Source: Synergistaceae bacterium
Lineage (GTDB): Bacteria > Synergistota > Synergistia > Synergistales > Synergistaceae
Length of the DNA stretch: 64,000 nt
Reading direction: 5' to 3'
Assembly: GCA_030523725.1 (NCBI GenBank)
Contig: JAUNHV010000001.1
Coordinates: 1-64,000, forward strand
Shown here in pieces: positions 17,921-60,739 of this stretch (the stretch's first letter is position 1; each line of letters begins with the position of its first letter). Under the pieces are notes generated by a model. It did not search any database and was not told the DNA's origin. It saw only the letters and a list, made by a program, of their open reading frames with translations. The position numbers and the translations under genes were made by a program.

Positions 17921-17930
17921 TCCTTTATTG

Positions 17931-18470
17931 CTAATGTTTTTTTAGAAATTCTATAAATGCTAAGAGAGTTTCAAAAGCTATTACAGCAATTTGCAACCGA
18001 ACGTTTTCTCTTGTCCCCTCAAATATTTTCTTAAAGGTTTTTGTTATTCCACTCTTTGTTGCAATTCCAAAAAAAACAGTGCCAAGCGGATTTTCCTCTG
18101 TGCCTCCGTCCGGTCCTGCGAAGCCGGTTACAGAAATTGCTATGTCACTAGGAATTACGCCAAGCACACCGCTCGCCATTTGGGAAGCACAATCAGCACT
18201 CACTGCTCCAACCTCATCAAGCGTTTTAGGGCAAACACGCAAGACACTAGCCTTTACTTCGTCCGAATAAGAAACAACACTGCCATAAAACACAGCAGAA
18301 GAACCGGCAATATCTGTTACGCTCTTTGCCAAAAGTCCCCCTGTGCAAGACTCGGCAAAGGTAAAGTGTAGCCCTTTTTCTTTTGCCTTTGTTACAACCT
18401 GCACGGAAAGTTCATGCAACATGGCCGTCAAATCATTATCGCTTCTAATTTCTGCCATTTTGCTTAACAA
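17931..18470 (-). CDS. pncC: Nicotinamide-nucleotide amidase (CinA C-terminal type), copy 1
   Basis: A 179-residue stand-alone CinA C-terminal domain. The family deamidates nicotinamide mononucleotide in the pyridine nucleotide cycle. Motifs are [23 protein letters not shown] (nucleophile Ser region), [26 protein letters not shown] and [25 protein letters not shown]. It overlaps deoC by 26 bp. It is one of two near-identical copies (about 9 residue changes in 179 against the gene at 58076), part of a 1,175-bp gapless direct repeat. No N-terminal molybdopterin-like domain is present. Confidence 0.92.
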
Positions 18471-19110
18471 TCTTTACAATGCGAGAAGTACCAAGACGTT
18501 TTGCACCCAGGTTTAAGAAATCTTCTGCATCTTCCAAGCTCCCTATTCCGCCAGCGGCTTTAATTTTTTTACCGTTTGTGACGTGTTTTGCAAAGAGTGC
18601 AATGTCCTCTTTTGTGGCTCCACCAGTGCTGAAACCAGTTGAAGTTTTGATAAAATCTGCATCCGATTTGCTCACAATCTCACACATTTTTATTTTCTCT
18701 TCTTCTGTTAAAAGGCAGGTTTCTATTATTACCTTCAAAATTTTTTCAAGGCAATTTTGCTTTATCTCGTTAATTTCTTCCAAAATTTCGTCATAATTTT
18801 TGTCTTTTAGATCACCAATGTTGATGACCATATCAATTTCATCTGCACCATTCTGAACTGCTTGACGAGCTTCAAAACATTTGACTTCTTTTGTGGCATA
18901 GCCATTTGGAAAACCGATGACAGTGCAAATTGCGACACGCCCTGCCGCATATTCGCTAGCACGCTTCACATAAGTTGGTGGAATGCATACAGAAGCAGTT
19001 TTATATGCTATACCATCGTCAATAATTGACCTAATTTCGCTCCAAGTTGTCCCCTGTGACAAAAGCGTATGATCACAATGATTTAATATGTAGTTAATGT
19101 CCATTTTAAT
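17936..19110. repeat. 1,175-bp direct repeat, copy 1
   Basis: Covers pncC and deoC in full. The matching copy is 58081-59255, same orientation, 40,145 bp away, aligned without gaps. Homology stops 6 bp ahead of the deoC start. A further homologous block with terminator, tRNA and tRNA promoter follows at 19297-19504. Confidence 0.9.
18445..19104 (-). CDS. deoC: Deoxyribose-phosphate aldolase, copy 1
   Basis: A 219-residue class I aldolase that splits 2-deoxyribose 5-phosphate to acetaldehyde and glyceraldehyde 3-phosphate. Conserved parts are NHCDHTLL at the start, [34 protein letters not shown] with the Schiff-base Lys, and KAAGGIG. ATG 19104 has GGAG 11 bases upstream. It is about 98 percent identical in protein to the gene at 58590 (5 changes noted). 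Sequence upstream of the start differs completely between the copies, so expression may differ too. Confidence 0.95.
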
Positions 19111-19348: not shown

Positions 19349-19436
19349 TGGTGCCGGAGGGGAGACTCGAACTCCCACGAGGTGTTAGCCTCGGTGGATT
19401 TTGAGTCCACTGCGTCTGCCATTCCGCCACTCCGGC
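19349..19436 (-). tRNA. tRNA-Leu(CAA)
   Basis: An 88-nt gene with encoded CCA (19349-19351) and A73. The acceptor stem GCCGGAG/CTCCGGC pairs perfectly. The anticodon loop CTCAAAA gives CAA (reads UUG). A long variable arm CGAGG/CCTCG marks a class II tRNA, and TTCGAGTC is the T-loop region. Every visible stem is intact, so it should be functional. Confidence 0.95.
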
Positions 19437-35724: not shown

Positions 35725-36786
35725 ATGGCTGTTGGCGCTACTGAGTATTTTGATAGCCTAATTGATAAGGCGATAGAAATCGGTGCATCTGACATTCACC
35801 TTGAACCTCACCGTTTACGTTTTCGTGTATTAGGTACTCTTCTTGAATTTCCATATTTGACTGAGCACCATAGAAACATTATCAACATCATAAAAAACAT
35901 GGCGCAACTTGATACATCCGAAAGTCGCCTACCTCAGGATGGAAAATTCCATGTGCATGCTACAGGAAGAAACATAGACATAAGAGTTTCCACCATTCCT
36001 CTAGGTGATGATGAGTTTTTCGCAAGAAATGAAAAGGCCGTACTCCGTCTGCTTGACCCCAAAGCGTTCTGTCTTGAGCTTGATAATTTAGGTTTTGATA
36101 CAAAACAACTTGAAATTCTACGAAAAGCAATCACTTGCAAGAGCGGTATGGTAATATTGACCGGTCCTACGGGAAGCGGAAAAACTACAACCCTCTATTC
36201 CTTGTTACAAATTTTGAACAAACCAGACGTTAACATTGTTACAGTTGAAGACCCCGTTGAGTATAAAATTGATGGAGTCTCCCAAATACAAGTTAACGAT
36301 AAAATTGGCTTAAGCTTTAATAACATTCTGCCATACATTTTGAGACAAGACCCCGACATAATTATGATTGGGGAAATTCGTGATAAAGAAACAGCTTTAG
36401 CAGCTACACAAGCAGCTCTCACTGGCCACCTTGTTTTAGCAACTTTACACACGACAAATGCGACCACCGCAATAGAACGATTGCAAAACATGGGTCTTCC
36501 CAGTTACTTGATTTCTGCTTCTGTATCTCTTATTGTTGCACAGAGATTAATTCGTTGTGACATAAAGGATGGATATTTTACAAAGAGAGTTGCAGTATGT
36601 GAAATTCTACAACTGGATAAAAATATAATAGACCTCATAAACTCTAACACGCCAGAAAGTGTCCTGCGAGAGCAGGCAATAACAAACGGTATGACAACGA
36701 TGAAGCAAAACGCATTAAAACTTTTGCAGGAAAATAAAACAACAAAGGAAGAAATATCGTTTTTGTTAGACGATGCAGAGTGTTAA
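35725..36786 (+). CDS. GspE/ComGA-type secretion ATPase
   Basis: A 353-residue traffic ATPase. Seen: ASDIHLEP near the start, Walker A LTGPTGSGKTTT, Asp box TVEDPVEY, Walker B ILRQDPDIIMIGEIRD and His box TGHLVLATLHTTNA. It lacks both the long N-terminal MshEN domain of PilB/GspE and the tetracysteine zinc loop, giving a size close to B. subtilis ComGA (DNA uptake pseudopilus). No other pilus gene adjoins it. The only possible partner in the window is the A24 peptidase at 44431. It sits oddly between serA and a peptide transporter, with only a weak ribosome site. Confidence 0.85.
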   Translation: MAVGATEYFDSLIDKAIEIGASDIHLEPHRLRFRVLGTLLEFPYLTEHHRNIINIIKNMAQLDTSESRLPQDGKFHVHATGRNIDIRVSTIPLGDDEFFARNEKAVLRLLDPKAFCLELDNLGFDTKQLEILRKAITCKSGMVILTGPTGSGKTTTLYSLLQILNKPDVNIVTVEDPVEYKIDGVSQIQVNDKIGLSFNNILPYILRQDPDIIMIGEIRDKETALAATQAALTGHLVLATLHTTNATTAIERLQNMGLPSYLISASVSLIVAQRLIRCDIKDGYFTKRVAVCEILQLDKNIIDLINSNTPESVLREQAITNGMTTMKQNALKLLQENKTTKEEISFLLDDAEC

Positions 36787-36787
36787 C

Positions 36788-38434
36788 ATGAAAAAAAATA
36801 TAATAATTAGCATTTTATTAGTATTAGTATTATGCCTATGTAACGGAAAAGCATACTCAATGGTTTCCGTGCCAAAAATAGACGAGCTAACCTACCTCAT
36901 AATTAAAAATCCAGACGCACAGACTATGGCTCTTGCCTCTGGTGCCGTAGATATGCTTGGCGACTTGACACGACCAAGCGACATTGAACTTTTGAGCAAA
37001 CATAAAAATCTCAAGATGTCAGTCGCCCCAATGAGTCATGCTTTTTTTCTGCTTTTTAATAACAAAAAAACTCCGCTCAATGACAAAGCAATAAGACAGG
37101 CAATATCCATTGTAATTCCTCGATCGTCTATTGTTCGTCTTATTTTCTCTGGCTACTCAATGCCCTTGACTTCTTACCTTCCACCAACATCACCCTGGGC
37201 AGTGTCACAAACGGGCGAGGCTGCTTCTTCTGCAAAAGCTGAAGAGATAATGAAGAAAGCTGGTTACAGCAAAACATTACTTGGAAAATGGCAAGACAAA
37301 AATAAACGTACCTTGCTTAAGATCGAAATATTATCTCCAACGGCAAGTGTTGCACCAACAACGGAAGAAATTGCTAAAGATATAGCAGACACGTTAACTG
37401 CCTTTGGCTTTGATGCCTATGTAACACCAATAGACTTTTCAACTATGATTTCACGCCTTGACAGACGTGACTATACTGCCTCTGTTTTGGCTTGGAGCAT
37501 GGGACGTAATCCTGACAGCCTCTACAATTTTTATCACTCCGAGTGTGACACAAAGGGTGGTTACAATATGACAAGTGTCTCAAGCAAAGAGCTTGACAAT
37601 GTACTAAAAAAACTGCGAACCGCAAAGGATAAAGAGGAAGCCACTCTTTACTCAAAAAAAGCACAGGAAATTTTATGTGATTTGCGACCCATGGTGCCAA
37701 TTTACAGCAGAATGTCTGTTTCCTGTGTGAGTGATAAATGGAAAAACATATTTTCTACAAAGAAAACTTCCGCAGTAAATTCTTACACCTACCTTTTTGC
37801 TGAACCAAAGGTGCATAAAAAGGGCGAAAAAAAAGTTTTGCGGACTATTTTGGCGGAAGAGCCAAGAAACTTGAATCCATTTGTTGCAAGTTCTGCCTAT
37901 GATTGGGAAATATTGGGGCTTCTATATGAAAGCCTTATTTCTTCTGATCCGTACACAATGGAAGACATTCCATGGCTTGCTTCATCATGGAAGTTAACAA
38001 CAGATAAAAAACAAAACACGACCACGATAACATTTGTGATAGATACTTCTGTCCGTTTTAGTGATGGCTCAAACCTGACAGCACAAGACGTTGCTAGTAC
38101 ATTTGAGTTTTTGAAAAAAAATAAAGTGCCACGTTTTTATGATTCCGTAAAGGACATAGCAAAAATCTCTGTAATTTCTAATAACAAAATTGCAATCATC
38201 TTGAACGGAATAAGCTATTGGTATCTTGATAAAGTTGGTGGAATGTTTGTCATGCCTAAAAAAATTATAGATTCTGTAAAGAATTGGCAAACATGGAAGC
38301 CAACCTTCTCACAACTCGTTGGCACCGGACCATTTGTGATAGGCAAATACAAGCCTGGTGAATTTATAACTATGAAGAAAAATCCACATTACACTCGCAC
38401 AAAATTTCCAGTAAAAAAGGAGGACCTTAGATGA
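36788..38434 (+). CDS. Oligopeptide-type ABC substrate-binding protein, apparently circularly permuted
   Basis: A 548-residue exported SBP family 5 protein. ATG 36788 starts a signal peptide (MKKNIIISILLVLVLCLCNG). The domain order is reversed. Residues about 30-340 match the C-terminal half of DppA-like proteins (QTMALASGAVDML, PLNDKAIRQAISIVIPRSSI, AFGFDAYV, then LRPMVPIYS). Residues about 345-548 match the normal N-terminal half (LRTILAEEPRNLNPF, LLYESLI, FSDGSNLTAQDV, GTGPFVIGKY, MKKNPHY). Both halves look complete in one frame, which fits circular permutation via tandem duplication. Its 3' end overlaps the permease gene by 4 bp, so it should serve that transporter. Specificity is unknown. 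Confidence 0.88.
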   Translation: MKKNIIISILLVLVLCLCNGKAYSMVSVPKIDELTYLIIKNPDAQTMALASGAVDMLGDLTRPSDIELLSKHKNLKMSVAPMSHAFFLLFNNKKTPLNDKAIRQAISIVIPRSSIVRLIFSGYSMPLTSYLPPTSPWAVSQTGEAASSAKAEEIMKKAGYSKTLLGKWQDKNKRTLLKIEILSPTASVAPTTEEIAKDIADTLTAFGFDAYVTPIDFSTMISRLDRRDYTASVLAWSMGRNPDSLYNFYHSECDTKGGYNMTSVSSKELDNVLKKLRTAKDKEEATLYSKKAQEILCDLRPMVPIYSRMSVSCVSDKWKNIFSTKKTSAVNSYTYLFAEPKVHKKGEKKVLRTILAEEPRNLNPFVASSAYDWEILGLLYESLISSDPYTMEDIPWLASSWKLTTDKKQNTTTITFVIDTSVRFSDGSNLTAQDVASTFEFLKKNKVPRFYDSVKDIAKISVISNNKIAIILNGISYWYLDKVGGMFVMPKKIIDSVKNWQTWKPTFSQLVGTGPFVIGKYKPGEFITMKKNPHYTRTKFPVKKEDLR

Positions 38435-39396
38435 CGAAAGAATACATAGCAAAAAAAATACTTTCAGCTTTATTTGTCCTTCTTTGTGTAATTGTGCTTA
38501 ATTTCTTTTTATTCAGGCTGATGCCTGGAGATGCAGTAAGCACTATAATTGATCCAAACTTTTCACAAGAAGCAAAGGAACACTTACGTCATCTATATGC
38601 TCTTGATAAAACTCTGCCAGAGCAATTTTTAGTTTATATAAAGAGTATGGTCACCTTTGACTTTGGTATGTCATTTTTGTCACAAAAACCTGTTTGGGAA
38701 GAAATTCATTCCCGACTCTTGAACACATTGTTTCTTTCTTGCTCTGTTATGATTTGTTCTGCCATTACTGGTATAATTCTTGGCATAAAGGCTGCATATT
38801 CAAGAGGTGGCAAAACAGAAAAATTTGTGCTTCGCAGTGCTGCTTTGACCAGTGCTTTTCCTTCATTTTTTGTAGAGCTACTATTTTTGATGTTCTTTGC
38901 TTATGGCTTAGGGTTTTTTCCACTCCGTGGTACGACCTCTATTCCAGAGCCAGTTGGTGCTTTCAATATTTGTATTGACTATATCTGGCACATGGCGTTA
39001 CCTGTAATTTCGCTTTCGTTACTTTCCTTTGGCTCATGGGCACTCTATGTACGAAACTTGACAATAAAAACAACTCAGGAAGATTTTGTTTTTGCAGCAA
39101 GAGCAAGGGGGCTTTCTGAAAAAGCTATTTCGCATCATATCTTTCGCACAATACTGCCAACAATCATCACAATAATCCTAATGTCCCTACCTGGGCTTGT
39201 TTCTGGCGCTGTCATCACAGAGACCATCTTTTCTCTTAGAGGGCTAGGAACATTTTTGCTTGAATCTGTTACGGCACAAGATTATCCGTCTGCACAAGCT
39301 TCATTTTTCTTGCTTGCTCTGATTACAATAACAAGCAATATGCTAGCAGATATCTTTATTTGCGTTGCTGACCCACGAATAAAGGCAGAAAACTAG
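38431..39396 (+). CDS. Peptide ABC transporter permease, DppB type
   Basis: A 321-residue inner-membrane permease. It starts with the usual IAKKILSALFVLLCVIVLNFFLFRLMPGD segment and carries the coupling motif FAARARGLSEKAISHHIFRTILP and LVSGAVITETIFSLRGLG. Six membrane segments are expected. It works with the DppC-type permease 9 bp downstream and the two ATPases. It starts inside the end of the binding-protein gene (ATGA-type overlap region). Confidence 0.93.
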   Translation: MTKEYIAKKILSALFVLLCVIVLNFFLFRLMPGDAVSTIIDPNFSQEAKEHLRHLYALDKTLPEQFLVYIKSMVTFDFGMSFLSQKPVWEEIHSRLLNTLFLSCSVMICSAITGIILGIKAAYSRGGKTEKFVLRSAALTSAFPSFFVELLFLMFFAYGLGFFPLRGTTSIPEPVGAFNICIDYIWHMALPVISLSLLSFGSWALYVRNLTIKTTQEDFVFAARARGLSEKAISHHIFRTILPTIITIILMSLPGLVSGAVITETIFSLRGLGTFLLESVTAQDYPSAQASFFLLALITITSNMLADIFICVADPRIKAEN

Positions 39397-39404
39397 GTGC
39401 AACC

Positions 39405-40574
39405 ATGAAAAAGAATCTTTTAATTTTTTCATTTTCACTTTTTCTATTTGTTGGGATTTTCGGCTCTTGGATTGCTCCCTATTCTCCACGAATGACCGTT
39501 GCTGCTCCTTTTGCTTCTCCTATTTGGTCTTCGTTCCTTTCAAAAAATGAAACTTATAATTTTGACAACGCGCTAACCTTTGAAACGGCAGATGGAGCTC
39601 CTGCAATTTTTTCTCTCTTTGGAACATTAGAGGTGGAGCAAAAGGACGGTGCAAAAATAGTTTTGACAAGAGAGCTTGAAGGCAAAACAGATAAATTTAT
39701 TCTATTTGAAACAAAAGACAATAACGTTCATGGAATAGACTTGGATGCAAGGGATATCTCGTTCAAACAACAACTTTCTCTTGCTCCAACGGACACTGCT
39801 ACAGAGTTTTTGTTTCAAAAGGGGGCAAAATACAAGATAGAAGTATTAGGTGGCAAGGCGCATTTAGAGATGCAATTGCTAGGCAAACGCTTTGGCTTCT
39901 TGGGAACAGACCACAAGGGGCGTGATATCTTCAGTATAATGCTCACAGGCGCAAAAACATCGCTCTTTATTGGTATTTCAGCTGCTCTGGTATCGTGTAT
40001 TCTGGGAGTTATAATAGGTTGTATTGCCGGCTTTTTCGGTGGAATTTTGGACACCTTACTAATGAGACTCTGTGACATTCTTATGTCAATCCCTACCTTG
40101 CCAATTCTTTTAATTCTCGCTGCTTTTTGGGGCAAAGGAATTTTGCAAATAGTTTTTATTATGTCCATTTTTGCATGGATGGGAACGGCGAGGACAATCC
40201 GTGCCTATGTCAAGAGCCTGCGTGAATCCGCATGGGTTCAAAGTTTACAGGCAATGGGGGCAAGCAATAAATACATAATCAGTCGTCACATAATTCGAGA
40301 AACTTACCCTATAATTTTAGCAAACATAGTAATTGGTGTCCCATCTGCAATTATGGGGGAGGCTGGACTATCATTTCTTGGTATGTCTGATCCTCGCATA
40401 ATTTCTTGGGGGCGAGTGTTACATGACGCTCATTCATTTGGAGCTTTTACTCATCTTGCTTGGTGGATACTTTTGCCACCTGGACTTGCAATTTGCCTTT
40501 TGTCTTTAACCTTTATCACTGCCGGAAGATTTATGGAAGAAAAACTTGACCATAGATTGCAGGACAAGTTTTAG
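39405..40574 (+). CDS. Peptide ABC transporter permease, DppC type, with large periplasmic insert
   Basis: A 389-residue permease. The first membrane helix (residues about 5-24, then WIAPYSPR) is followed by about 140 residues before the family landmark LGTDHKGRDIFS (166-177). In DppC this distance is roughly 40, so about 100 extra residues, likely periplasmic, are inserted. They show alternating charged and beta-like stretches (AKIVLTRELEG, YKIEVLGGKAHLEM). The rest is normal, with coupling loop QSLQAMGASNKYIISRHIIRE. The insert could contact the permuted binding protein, which is only a guess. Confidence 0.9.
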   Translation: MKKNLLIFSFSLFLFVGIFGSWIAPYSPRMTVAAPFASPIWSSFLSKNETYNFDNALTFETADGAPAIFSLFGTLEVEQKDGAKIVLTRELEGKTDKFILFETKDNNVHGIDLDARDISFKQQLSLAPTDTATEFLFQKGAKYKIEVLGGKAHLEMQLLGKRFGFLGTDHKGRDIFSIMLTGAKTSLFIGISAALVSCILGVIIGCIAGFFGGILDTLLMRLCDILMSIPTLPILLILAAFWGKGILQIVFIMSIFAWMGTARTIRAYVKSLRESAWVQSLQAMGASNKYIISRHIIRETYPIILANIVIGVPSAIMGEAGLSFLGMSDPRIISWGRVLHDAHSFGAFTHLAWWILLPPGLAICLLSLTFITAGRFMEEKLDHRLQDKF

Positions 40575-40596: not shown

Positions 40597-41490
40597 ATGA
40601 TTGAAATTAAAAACTTAACTATTTCCTACAAAAATAACAATGGTACATTTGACACTCCTGCGGTTCAAGATGTTTCTTTCACCATACAGGACAACGAAAC
40701 GTCTTGCCTTATAGGTGAATCCGGAAGCGGAAAAAGCACAATAATGTCTGCCATCTTGGGACTTTTGCCACTGGGCACAAAGATTGAAGGGCAAATCCTG
40801 CTTGACGGTGTAAACCTCTTGACCTACGATGAAGAAAAATTTCTCTCCATTCGTGGCAAAAAAATTTCTCTTATTCCGCAGGCTTCTTTGAATTCTTTTA
40901 CGCCAGTTTTCACACTCGGAAAAATTTTGGAAGAGCTTGTTACCTTGCACAGCAAAGAGAAATTGACAAAAGAAGAAATTAAAAACACAATCTGTGCAAC
41001 GCTTGCTGACTGCGGTTTATCTAGCGAATTTTTGCCGAAATACCCACACGAGATGTCCGGTGGAGAAAGACAGCGTGCTGCAATCGCAGCCGCCCTTGTA
41101 ACAGGGTGTCGTGTGCTTTTGGCAGACGAGCCAACAACGGCGCTTGATGTTGTGACACAGGACAAAATTTTGCAACTCCTAAAGCGTTTGCAAAAGGAAA
41201 AGAATTTAACCATTCTTCTTGTTACACATGACCTCGCTGTTGCTTCAAGCCTTGCCACAAACTTTTTTGTCATGGAACACGGACACCTGATAGAAACAAC
41301 AACACGAGATAAAATTTTTGTTGCACCACAGGCAAAACACACAAAAGAACTTGTTGAAGCAGCAAATTTTTATAGAAAGAATTTTGTGCAAAATGAAAAC
41401 ACAGAGAAAAATCAAGAAACTGAAAGCAAATGGGATAAATTGACAAAATGGATAAAATTGATAAAAAAATCTTTGAATGTGAAAATCTAA
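40597..41490 (+). CDS. Peptide ABC transporter ATPase, DppD type
   Basis: A 297-residue ATPase: Walker A GESGSGKST, Q-loop region IPQASLNSFTP, signature MSGGERQR, Walker B LLADEPTTALD and switch His in LLVTHDLAV. ATG 40597 is preferred (AAAGG ahead), since upstream in-frame codons lie inside the permease gene. The C-terminus lacks the usual Cys-containing DppD tail and ends in a Lys-rich stretch. It overlaps the second ATPase gene by 43 bp. Confidence 0.92.
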   Translation: MIEIKNLTISYKNNNGTFDTPAVQDVSFTIQDNETSCLIGESGSGKSTIMSAILGLLPLGTKIEGQILLDGVNLLTYDEEKFLSIRGKKISLIPQASLNSFTPVFTLGKILEELVTLHSKEKLTKEEIKNTICATLADCGLSSEFLPKYPHEMSGGERQRAAIAAALVTGCRVLLADEPTTALDVVTQDKILQLLKRLQKEKNLTILLVTHDLAVASSLATNFFVMEHGHLIETTTRDKIFVAPQAKHTKELVEAANFYRKNFVQNENTEKNQETESKWDKLTKWIKLIKKSLNVKI

Positions 41491-42227
41491 CCTTAATATA
41501 TAAATCAGCCAAGGCAAAAGCAAAGCTTGCCTTGGACAATTTGTCCTTTTCTCTTGAAGCAGGGCAGACTTTGTCCGTCGTTGGTGAATCTGGAAGCGGA
41601 AAATCGACTCTCCTAAAGTGTTCCACGGGGCTTTTGCCTGCAACAAAGGGAAAAGTCTGTGTTTTTGGCAAAGAGCTAAACACAAAGAACAAAAAACTTT
41701 TGCAAGAAATGCGTTTCAAATTCTCACTTGTCTTGCAGGATACCTATGGAGCTTTGCCACCGGCAAGCAATGTGTTGGATGCTGTTACAGAACCACTCTT
41801 TATTCAAAATGGCGTTGTAAAAGACTCGGACAATGAGCGCGCCTTGACACTCTTGGATTCGCTCAAACTTGCTGACGAAAGATTACTAAAATCAGAGTCC
41901 TACGACCTCTCTGGCGGTCAAAGGCAACGTGTGCAAATAGCACGTGCCCTCGTAACAAACCCGATGTTACTATTTGCAGACGAACCCACTTCAATGCAGG
42001 ACGCAAGCACAAAAAAAGACATAATCAATTTGTTAAATTCATACAAAGAACGTGGAATGGCGATGATATTCGTTACACATGATATTTTGCTTGCTTCTTC
42101 AATTGGCGAAAAAATGCTGGTGTTGAAAAACGGCGTTTGTGTTGAACAGGGCAATTCCCACGAAATTCTCACATCTCCAAGCCACGAATATACAAAAGCA
42201 CTTCTTGCAGCACTTCCAAAAATTTAA
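41448..42227 (+). CDS. Peptide ABC transporter ATPase, DppF type
   Basis: A 259-residue ATPase, second of the pair: Walker A GESGSGKST, LVLQDTYGALPP Q-loop, signature LSGGQRQRVQIA, Walker B LLFADEPTSMQDAST (Gln-Asp where Leu-Asp is usual) and switch His in FVTHDI. Opp/Dpp transporters use two different ATPases, so this gene completes the five-gene transporter. The next gene begins 17 bp later. Confidence 0.92.
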   Translation: MDKIDKKIFECENLTLIYKSAKAKAKLALDNLSFSLEAGQTLSVVGESGSGKSTLLKCSTGLLPATKGKVCVFGKELNTKNKKLLQEMRFKFSLVLQDTYGALPPASNVLDAVTEPLFIQNGVVKDSDNERALTLLDSLKLADERLLKSESYDLSGGQRQRVQIARALVTNPMLLFADEPTSMQDASTKKDIINLLNSYKERGMAMIFVTHDILLASSIGEKMLVLKNGVCVEQGNSHEILTSPSHEYTKALLAALPKI

Positions 42228-52771: not shown

Positions 52772-54646
52772 TTACAGATTATAGGTTGCTTTGAACATAA
52801 AGCGTCTTTCTGGATTGAGGTATCCATCTTTACTGGTGAAATATTCCTTGTTAAATATATTAGTTACTGAAAATTGTAGTGTTAAATCCTTAATCTGTTT
52901 TGCAAGAGAAAAATCCATGGTGAAGATGCTGCCAGAATCATATATGTAATTACCTTCGCCAAAGGTTCTATCAGCATAAAACAAGCCATTTAGCGAAGCT
53001 GTCCAACCGTTTTTCTTGAAGCCTAAGATGACACTTGCTTTCCACCTTGGTTCACCTGACCTTACCCAATGAGAAGAAGCATATTTTTCTTCACCTTTTG
53101 TGAATGAAATTGCAGGGGTTAAGCTCCAATTTTTGTGCCAATTCCACTGATAACTTGCTTCAAAGCCCCATGCACGATATTTATCTACATTTCTATATTG
53201 TCCCTTCCATGAAGATGGATCTGTTGTTACGTAGTTGATTTTGTCATCTAGATTGATGTAGAAAATACCGGCACTCCACGGATTTTTGCTTTCTGCATTT
53301 TTAATGCCAATTTCGTAATCCCATCCCTTTTCAGCTTTTAAATCTGGGTTGATGGATAAGTATGCACTCTCACCGAACATCTGATATAAGGTTGGCATGG
53401 AAAAATGACGGGCAATTGTTAAGTAATATGTAGTTCCTTGCTCATTTGCAAAATTAAATGAAAAACGTGGCATCAGCTCTTTATAATTTGCCCCATCTGA
53501 TATATTCCAGTATTCATAACGCAATCCGATATCAAATGCACATACACCAATAGGTAGCGATGTTTCAATGTAGGGAGCAACTTCAAACCGTGATTTGTCG
53601 TAGGGATAAGAAAAGCCAGTTCTATCTGTATAGGCTGCTTTGTCTTTCTTGTAATCTATTCCGTAGGAAAATGGAAGGATACCTATGTGTGTTTTCCTTG
53701 TCAAGGTGCCACCGTATGTTGTTGAGGACATGTCTGAGTTTTCCGAATTATCTCGTGCAGCCGTGATGCTTTCGAGCTTATTTATAAAAACTCTTCCTAA
53801 AAATTTTCCATCATCGTATTGCAATGTATAACGACCATAGGTGTTTTTCTGGTCATATTGCTGGAAGCCTAATTGAGAAGATTCCCAGTCTGATTTATTC
53901 TGCCCAGCAAAACCTACAAACTTCCAATTATTGTAACCAATGGAAAAATTATAGTCATTTGATGAATAGTGGTTTGCGTGGTCGTAAGTGCCGTCCTCGC
54001 TTTTTCTAATTCGTGTTTCTCCTTCTCTTGTATAACGGTAACCTAGGGTGACACGCCATGCGTCTTCTACCACACCTGCTCTTGTGGAAGTGGAGAAGTA
54101 GCCGTTGCTTCCAGCAAATAGTGATGTGGAAGCGTGGGGCTTGTCAAAACTTTTCTTTGTTATGATGTTTATTACGCCACCTGCGGCATCACTGCCATAA
54201 ATTGCAGAAGAACTGCCCTTTAACACCTCAATTCGTTCAACTGTATCTAAATCTATCGTGCGTAAATCTAATGGACCGCCTAAATCGCTCCCCGTCCCAT
54301 GATTTGGATCGCTTACTGCTATTCCGTCAATCAAATAAAGCATTTCACTTGTGAGCCCTCTTATGGTTAGTCCTTTTTTTTGAGCCATAGAAGCATCATT
54401 CACAGTGGTGCAGAGACCTGGAATATATTTCAATGCATCATGGATTGTTTTTGCCCCAGAATTTGCAATATCTTCTTTTGTCACGACATAGGTCTGTGCA
54501 GGGACTTCATCAAAGCTTTCTACTATGCGTGACCCTGTCACTTCAACAGTGTCAAGCTTTTTAATTTCTTCGTCCTTGGCAAAAGCATAGGTTGAAGCAA
54601 AAACAACCGTAAAAGATAAAATAAGTGCTGTAATTTTTTTGTGCAT
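52772..54646 (-). CDS. TonB-dependent outer membrane receptor, BtuB-like
   Basis: A 624-residue receptor. The signal peptide ends near FAFAKD-like STYAFA (residue 23). A TonB box-like LDTVEVTGSR follows, then the plug domain (PAQTYVVTKEDIANSGAKTIHDALK, LIDGIAVSDPNHG, RIEVLKGSSSAIYGSDAAGGVINIITKK) and a 22-strand barrel ending FKATYNL. Cobalamin is the likely cargo because a cobalamin riboswitch lies in its leader; the protein size is close to BtuB. No TonB/ExbBD or btuCDF genes are nearby. It is a single-gene unit with its own terminator. Confidence 0.93.
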   Translation of the reverse strand: MHKKITALILSFTVVFASTYAFAKDEEIKKLDTVEVTGSRIVESFDEVPAQTYVVTKEDIANSGAKTIHDALKYIPGLCTTVNDASMAQKKGLTIRGLTSEMLYLIDGIAVSDPNHGTGSDLGGPLDLRTIDLDTVERIEVLKGSSSAIYGSDAAGGVINIITKKSFDKPHASTSLFAGSNGYFSTSTRAGVVEDAWRVTLGYRYTREGETRIRKSEDGTYDHANHYSSNDYNFSIGYNNWKFVGFAGQNKSDWESSQLGFQQYDQKNTYGRYTLQYDDGKFLGRVFINKLESITAARDNSENSDMSSTTYGGTLTRKTHIGILPFSYGIDYKKDKAAYTDRTGFSYPYDKSRFEVAPYIETSLPIGVCAFDIGLRYEYWNISDGANYKELMPRFSFNFANEQGTTYYLTIARHFSMPTLYQMFGESAYLSINPDLKAEKGWDYEIGIKNAESKNPWSAGIFYINLDDKINYVTTDPSSWKGQYRNVDKYRAWGFEASYQWNWHKNWSLTPAISFTKGEEKYASSHWVRSGEPRWKASVILGFKKNGWTASLNGLFYADRTFGEGNYIYDSGSIFTMDFSLAKQIKDLTLQFSVTNIFNKEYFTSKDGYLNPERRFMFKATYNL

Positions 54647-54809: not shown

Positions 54810-54995
54810 AAGCCTCACAGTGTTCGCTCGCCACAGTTAGGAAAATAATTCACTGCGTAGGTTTTCCGACTCTCCTTCACCCTCACCAAACCTTCCCAGT
54901 TTTAACAACCAGTGGTATTTATGGTTCGTCCAGATTACGGCAGCGTGACTGTTTTGGATTTTCACCAAATTCCCTTCCGCAATTACTACCCGAAT
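54810..54995 (-). promoter_or_regulatory. Cobalamin riboswitch
   Basis: Read on the minus strand: GGGAATTTGGTGAAAATCC, CAGTCACGCTGC, a CCACTGG box, ACTGGGAAGG, and GAGTCGGAAAACCT in this order. This is the conserved core of adenosylcobalamin-type riboswitches. With the terminator at 54691 it should shut off the receptor gene when B12 is plentiful. Confidence 0.93.
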
Positions 54996-55048
54996 TTTAA
55001 CATGAAATATTTATTTGTCAAATATATTGATAAGTAAAACTGTTCAGT

Positions 55049-58062: not shown

Positions 58063-58075
58063 TTGTCTTTTATAG

Positions 58076-58615
58076 TTAGCGTTTTTTTAGAAATTCAATA
58101 AATGCTAAGAGAGTTTCAAAAGCCGTTACAGCAGTTTGCAAGCGAACGTTTTCTCTTGTCCCCTCAAATATTTTCTTAAAGGTTTTTGTTATTCCGCTCT
58201 TTGTTGCAATTCCAAAATAAACAGTGCCAAGCGGATTTTCCTCTGTGCCTCCGTCCGGTCCTGCAAAGCCCGTTACAGAAATTGCTATGTCACTCGGAAT
58301 TACGCCAAGCACACCGCTTGCCATTTGAGAAGCACAATCAGCACTCACTGCTCCAACCTCATCAAGCGTTTTTTGGCAAACACGCAAGACACTAGCCTTT
58401 ACTTCGTCCGAATAAGAAACAACACTGCCATAAAACACAGCAGAAGAACCGGCAATATCTGTTACGCTCTTCGCCAAAAGTCCCCCTGTGCAAGACTCGG
58501 CAAAGGTAAAGTGAAGCCCATTTTCTTTTGCCTTTGTTACAACCTGCACGGAAAGTTCATGCAACATTGCCATCAAATCAATATTGCTTCTAATTTCTGC
58601 CATTTTGCTTAACAA
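58076..58615 (-). CDS. pncC: Nicotinamide-nucleotide amidase, copy 2
   Basis: A 179-residue twin of the gene at 17931, with about 95 percent protein identity. All family motifs remain ([33 protein letters not shown]), so both copies are probably active. Changes are scattered (for example DNDLT to NIDLM near the start, and VFFG to VYFG), which suggests a recent duplication. It overlaps deoC copy 2 by 26 bp as in copy 1. Confidence 0.92.
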
Positions 58616-59255
58616 TCTTTACAATGCGAGAAGTGCCAAGACGTTCTGCACCTAGATTTAAGAAATCTTCTGCATCTTTCAAGCTTCCTATTCCACCGGC
58701 GGCTTTAATTTTTTTACCATTTGTGACATGCTTTGCAAAGAGTGCTATATCCTCTTTGGTAGCTCCACCAGTGCTGAAGCCAGTTGAAGTCTTGATAAAA
58801 TCTGCCTCTGATTTGCTCACAATCTCACACATTTTTATTTTCTCTTCTTCTGTTAAAAGGCAAGTTTCTATTATTACCTTCAAAATTTTTCCAAGACAAT
58901 TTTGCTTTATTTCGTTAATTTCTTCCAAAATCTCGTCATAATTTTTGTCTTTTAGATCGCCGATGTTGATAACCATGTCAATTTCATCTGCACCGTTTTG
59001 AACCGCCTGACGAGCCTCAAAACATTTTACTTCTTTTGTGGCATAGCCATTTGGAAAACCGATGACAGTGCAAATTGCGACACGCCCTGCCGCATATTCG
59101 CTAGCACGCTTCACATAAGTTGGTGGAATGCATACAGAAGCAGTTTTATATGCTATACCATCGTCAATAATTGACCTAATTTCGCTCCAGGTTGCCCCCT
59201 GTGACAAAAGCGTATGATCACAATGATTTAATATGTAGTTAATATCCATTTTAAT
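58081..59255. repeat. 1,175-bp direct repeat, copy 2
   Basis: Gapless partner of 17936-19110 in the same orientation. Homology ends 6 bases ahead of the deoC start, where the antiporter gene begins. It resumes at the terminator, tRNA and tRNA promoter (60601-60807). Confidence 0.9.
58590..59249 (-). CDS. deoC: Deoxyribose-phosphate aldolase, copy 2
   Basis: A 219-residue aldolase differing from copy 1 at about five residues (GTTW to GATW, LEKI to LGKI, SDAD to SEAD, SLED to SLKD, AKRL to AERL), none in the Schiff-base motif FIKTSTGF. Unlike copy 1 it directly follows the antiporter gene (1 bp gap) and should be co-transcribed with it. Confidence 0.95.
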
Positions 59256-60651: not shown

Positions 60652-60739
60652 TGGTGCCTGAGGGGAGACTCGAACTCCCACGAGGTGTTAGTCCCGATGG
60701 ATTTCGAGTCCACTGCGTCTGCCAGTCCGCCACTCCGGC
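60652..60739 (-). tRNA. tRNA-Leu-like gene with CGA anticodon; possible pseudogene
   Basis: An 88-nt homologue of the gene at 19349 with encoded CCA and A73. The anticodon loop reads CTCGAAA, giving CGA (a Ser UCG anticodon) from CAA by one A-to-G change. The body stays Leu-like: D-arm, long variable arm and acceptor end. Damage: G4-A69 mismatch in the acceptor stem, G27-T43 wobble, and a weaker variable arm (CGGGA against CCTCG). Promoter and terminator are kept. It could be a decayed copy, or a charged tRNA that places Leu at UCG. Confidence 0.7.

Follow-up and report, generated by a model that had tools for sequence, protein, structure and literature searches.

The window, that is, the whole 64,000-nucleotide stretch of Synergistaceae DNA that was analysed, carries a gene for a family-5 substrate-binding protein (SBP) whose parts do not follow the canonical order. 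A single open reading frame on the forward strand runs from 36788 to its stop at 38434 and encodes 548 amino acids (548 to 553 depending on the start). There are two candidate ATG codons, at 36773 and, more likely, at 36788 (MKKN...); the latter, which comes immediately after the stop codon of the PilB/GspE-type gene upstream, gives a typical signal-peptide start. The N terminus, MKKNIIISILLVLVLCLCNGKAYS (36788 to 36859), resembles a signal peptide, based on its sequence, on the similar hydrophobic leaders in relatives and on the structural model, in which a helix (residues 2 to 17) is followed by a stretch of low confidence (residues 19 to 25). Its cleavage site was placed by eye, and no lipobox was recognised. 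Behind this leader lies segment C1 (residues 26 to 165; 36863 to 37282), which is the middle of a canonical protein and corresponds to residues ~237 to 372 of the E. coli DppA precursor, and then segment C2 (residues ~166 to 325; 37283 to 37762), the canonical C-terminal part, which contains AWSMGRNPDSLYNFYHS. A junction (residues ~326 to 350; 37763 to 37837), delimited by comparison with canonical ends, leads from the old C terminus to the old mature N terminus. Segment N (residues 351 to 540; 37838 to 38407), the canonical N-terminal half, corresponding to DppA precursor residues ~27 to 236, comes last and ends with GTGPFVIGKY...KNPHY.

The segments were assigned with Pfam (C1 and N) and with alignments. 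The SBP_bac_5 profile (PF00496) matches the protein with 210 bits, against a curated cut-off of 32.4, which makes it a member of the family, and does so in two stretches of reversed order. Profile positions 144 to 363 match at 36866 to 37540 and positions 3 to 145 at 37967 to 38404, with E values as separate DNA matches of 3.5e-37 and 1.6e-24, respectively. In a phmmer comparison with solved structures, residues ~28 to 310 aligned to the C-terminal part (~200 to 490) of canonical OppA/AppA/DppA/NikA-type chains and residues ~350 to 545 to their N-terminal part (~15 to 230). AlphaFold2, supplied with 46 natural homologues, returned one fold (mean pLDDT 93.0, pTM 0.88), with pLDDT values above 90 in both halves and in the junction region. 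About 300 of the 548 residues were aligned to canonical cluster C structures (TM ~0.45) by Foldseek, which keeps chain order and makes no permutation-aware superposition, and such a partial alignment is what a permutant with the predicted fold should give under a sequential aligner. A solved chain with this order was found neither by sequence search nor by Foldseek against solved structures. The original prediction, made from the DNA, was that landmarks of DppA and OppA occur here in reversed order, in one open frame behind a signal peptide. All landmarks are where it placed them, and the separate alignment of each half to DppA, OppA, NikA and GsiB upheld the permutation, as did the single confident fold. 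The gene thus encodes a full-length family-5 SBP, circularly permuted to C1-C2-N, where canonical members have N-C1-C2. We refer to this form as cpA.

The gene heads a dppBCDF-like operon, all on the forward strand. It overlaps by 4 bases with the gene for a DppB/OppB/GsiC-like permease (38431 to 39396), behind which lie genes for a DppC/GsiD-like permease (39405 to 40574), a NikD/OppD-type ABC ATPase (40597 to 41490) and a DppF/OppF-type ABC ATPase (41448 to 42227). The permeases were assigned by Pfam, NCBIfam and comparison with E. coli systems, and the ATPases by their reading frames and NCBIfam. The NCBIfam models closest to the permeases are Opp4B and Opp4C, all scores being below the cut-offs; of the four systems used for comparison, GsiC/GsiD and DppB/DppC of E. 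coli come closest. The same linkage to Dpp/Opp-type permeases and ATPases exists in nearly all relatives examined. Among 40 neighbourhoods, the DppB-like permease gene directly follows the SBP gene in 39 and has the DppC-like permease gene beside it in 37; the two ATPase genes are usually next. A small number of loci are cut short or contain frames that overlap. In the genome to which the window belongs, PF00496 matches the permuted gene only, which leaves the importer without any alternative family-5 SBP as an encoded partner, and the permuted protein must be able to fold, be exported and dock. Of all the evidence, this gene content speaks most strongly for a working permuted protein.

Several observations concern the surroundings of the SBP gene. 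The DppC-like permease has a conserved insert of ~100 amino acids between its first transmembrane segment and its core, which is kept in the corresponding operons of most relatives and over which no Pfam domain was found. Directly upstream of the operon lies the PilB/GspE-type ATPase gene (35725 to 36786), a neighbour that none of the related loci examined showed. In Synergistaceae relatives, the position directly upstream is taken by a shortened LacI-family regulator, often overlapping the permuted SBP gene (L043:7214-7795; also L044, L045 and L047-L050) and absent beside the gene in the window. It consists of ~190 amino acids, with a helix-turn-helix and part of the sugar-binding domain. The idea that this small upstream gene is the leftover N half of an SBP was rejected once it was recognised as a LacI-type regulator.

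The permuted order is widespread in the phylum. Collinear homologues with 38 to 53% identity, nearly all full length and with their parts in order, are present in 108 of 188 Synergistota genomes and in 46 of 63 genera, almost always as a single copy per genome. SBP_bac_5 is matched by all 46 aligned relatives, which retain the permuted order, and the phylum matches listed all have C1-C2-N. Homologues lie on closed chromosomes such as G078 (1,980,592 bp), which we take to be Aminobacterium colombiense ALA-1, and G080 (2,427,830 bp), taken as Aminobacterium sp. MB27-C1; the gene is absent from G001 (1,848,474 bp), taken as Thermanaerovibrio acidaminovorans Su883. In two genomes of one genus, g55 (G161 and G158), the frame is broken by TGA and TAG codons (L079:8289-9949 and L039:47-1702), which reflects either sequencing errors or a pseudogene. 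An order that spans 548 amino acids and is kept in more than 40 genera excludes chance. The permuted form, the sole binding protein that its importer operon encodes, has been passed down across a whole bacterial order, and this age was not foreseen by the original prediction. Outside Synergistota, C1-C2-N was sought in plasmids only, where inspection of the best matches showed either canonical proteins or pairs of tandem genes. A search of genome contigs with the single protein gave two weak matches in Peribacteria and is uninformative on the spread outside the phylum.

We also found a second permutation of family-5 SBPs, with the order C2-N-C1 (cpB), which was likewise unforeseen. It emerged from the plasmid and phylum searches as single genes that match residues 173 to 536 contiguously and residues 30 to 167 afterwards. 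Carriers are Alphaproteobacteria and Haloarchaea, namely Nitratireductor, Maritalea, Neorhizobium, Roseomonas, Ketogulonicigenium and several Haloarchaea, as well as one Synergistota genome, G037 (L089:4929-6527, L090:4890-6662, L133-L140 and L093:5617-7293). In the phylum search there was no match in the second order (f11) at an E value of 1e-40. Pfam splits the cpB proteins in two stretches as well, and no solved chain with this order was found by sequence search. Most cpB genes head ABC importer operons, and public records label them just 'ABC transporter substrate-binding protein'. Some lie beside genes for M28 or M20 peptidases, D-aminoacylase or dipeptide epimerase. The two forms share the family and the junction of old C to old N terminus; they differ in the breakpoint, which lies between N and C1 in cpA and between C1 and C2 in cpB.

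For phylogenetic analysis, the segments of the permuted sequences were put back into canonical order before comparison with canonical SBPs, and long-branch sequences were removed before the careful tree was built. In that tree the two permutants form clades with support of 100/100 and 100/99, which are sisters at 97/91. Together with canonical SBPs from L101, L121, Cytobacillus, Meiothermus, Streptomyces and Sinorhizobium they make up one group (99/98). The C half alone gave the same topology (98/93 and 97/94). With only the N half, the origin was not settled (p-AU 0.485 and 0.548), and holding the permutants with the same canonical subclade comes at no cost to its tree (p-AU 0.548). In the parent subclade, canonical relatives have LVKLEPKK or IDIQPVK at the C terminus and YRIGYPNETDSLSPLAAYSAY at the start, and the junction of the permutants reads WTLLxAEPkdGk..L..EEPRNLNPFxASSAY. 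By this comparison, the old C terminus is fused almost directly to the old mature N terminus, so the two ends must lie close together in the fold. The 'EP' motif in the junction of both permutants was considered as proof of one fusion and rejected, because the canonical proteins of L101 and L121 end similarly. The motif is thus an ancestral tail, and it is only the tree that argues for a single origin.

How did such a gene arise, and is it what it seems to be? An assembly or annotation artefact in this one genome has nothing in its favour except the oddity of the gene itself, and it is exceedingly improbable, since full-length collinear homologues occur in more than 100 independent assemblies, closed chromosomes included. 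Some SBPs have roles in chemotaxis or signalling, and the permuted protein could be a sensor or another periplasmic factor that stands in the operon by chance, the more so as it reaches no named NCBIfam equivalog. We regard this as quite unlikely: in nearly all relatives the gene comes first in a complete importer operon, which has two permeases and two ATPases, and no other family-5 SBP is encoded in its genome. The protein may also be a mosaic of two paralogues: a deletion between neighbouring SBP genes would have joined the C part of one to the N part of the other. Rhizobial plasmids carry unrelated canonical SBP genes in tandem whose arrangement would suit as a starting point (L091 and L092), a deletion between such genes would give exactly the C-N order, and the N half is not firmly placed by its own tree. 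Against such a fusion, the whole-length and C-half trees agree, the N-half tree is no worse when the permutants are kept with the same canonical subclade, and the sister permutant has the same junction in spite of its different breakpoint; a mosaic is therefore unlikely.

A more probable origin is the one originally proposed, in which one gene was duplicated and the outer halves were then lost. Tree and junction are consistent with it, and the duplication step itself remains inferred because no intermediate was caught. Most likely, a tandem duplication in an ancestor fused two canonical SBP copies end to end, after which the outer parts were lost. A fused tandem duplicate could give both orders through different trimming. 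We think it rather likely that one ancestral fused duplicate gave rise both to C1-C2-N, which became fixed across Synergistales, and to C2-N-C1 in Alphaproteobacteria, Haloarchaea and one Synergistota genome. If so, three rotations of one binding-protein fold coexist, each with its own position of the chain start with respect to cleft and permease.

Taken together, the gene very probably encodes a permuted cluster C SBP of tandem-duplication origin that is exported, folds as a Venus flytrap and passes its solute to its own importer. Its N-terminal signal would export it, and the usual two-lobed Venus flytrap could form because the old N and C termini meet on the same domain; the new termini would derive from the surface loop that follows the 'KNPHY' strand. 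In the periplasm the protein would bind a small solute and pass it on to the operon's own importer of two permeases and two ATPases. The ligand may be peptide-like or a related small molecule. A binding mode like that of DppA is not supported by the sequence. The Asp of the WxxD motif (D436 in DppA, precursor numbering), which binds the alpha-amino group and marks the dipeptide-binding subfamily, is replaced in all sampled homologues, which have W-S-M-G/T/S. As AppA, a nonapeptide binder, also lacks this Asp, its absence does not argue against peptides as such. None of the named NCBIfam equivalogs (NikA, OppA, DppA, GsiB, SapA and CntA) was reached; the best score, 115.7 bits, was obtained with Opp5A_nikA, whose cut-off is 600. 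Peptides are plausible ligands, given that Synergistota ferment amino acids (PMC3035294, PMC3035242).

Canonical cluster C SBPs such as DppA, OppA, AppA, GsiB and NikA have the same Pfam domain over both halves and the same length class as cpA, and are encoded likewise in operons with DppB/C-like permeases and D/F-like ATPases. What sets cpA apart is the C1-C2-N order, the location of its termini in the loop after segment N, the joined old termini and the missing WxxD Asp. It has what is expected of a circularly permuted SBP: an intact domain, a cyclically shifted order and conservation of that order in relatives. Another natural permutation is on record for one other class, in TpMglB-2 (Tp0684) of Treponema pallidum, a cluster B sugar binder (PMC4990184). 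Both are importer-associated SBPs with a natural circular permutation that is conserved in a bacterial group. However, TpMglB-2 is a lipidated two-domain protein of type I/cluster B and represents an independent event. For TpMglB-2, folding and ligand binding were found to be kept (PMC4990184). We found no report of a permuted family-5 SBP in the open-access literature, and the case is apparently new. Natural circular permutation is rare for a large three-domain binding protein, and this one is ancient and kept in more than 40 genera. The class is hidden, because annotation pipelines treat its members like any other SBP and because aligners that keep chain order recover just half of the match. 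With three natural rotations at hand, it can be tested directly which features of chain order are important for folding, export and docking.

Some other features of the window may be mentioned. There are two copies of a deoC/cinA-like gene pair (17921 to 19110 and 58066 to 59255), which are 94.7% identical over 1190 bp. The 209-bp stretches around tRNA-Leu(CAA) at 19349 and tRNA-Ser(CGA) at 60652 are 87.6% alike. A cobalamin riboswitch on the reverse strand (54837 to 55019) lies upstream of a TonB-receptor-like gene (52772 to 54646).
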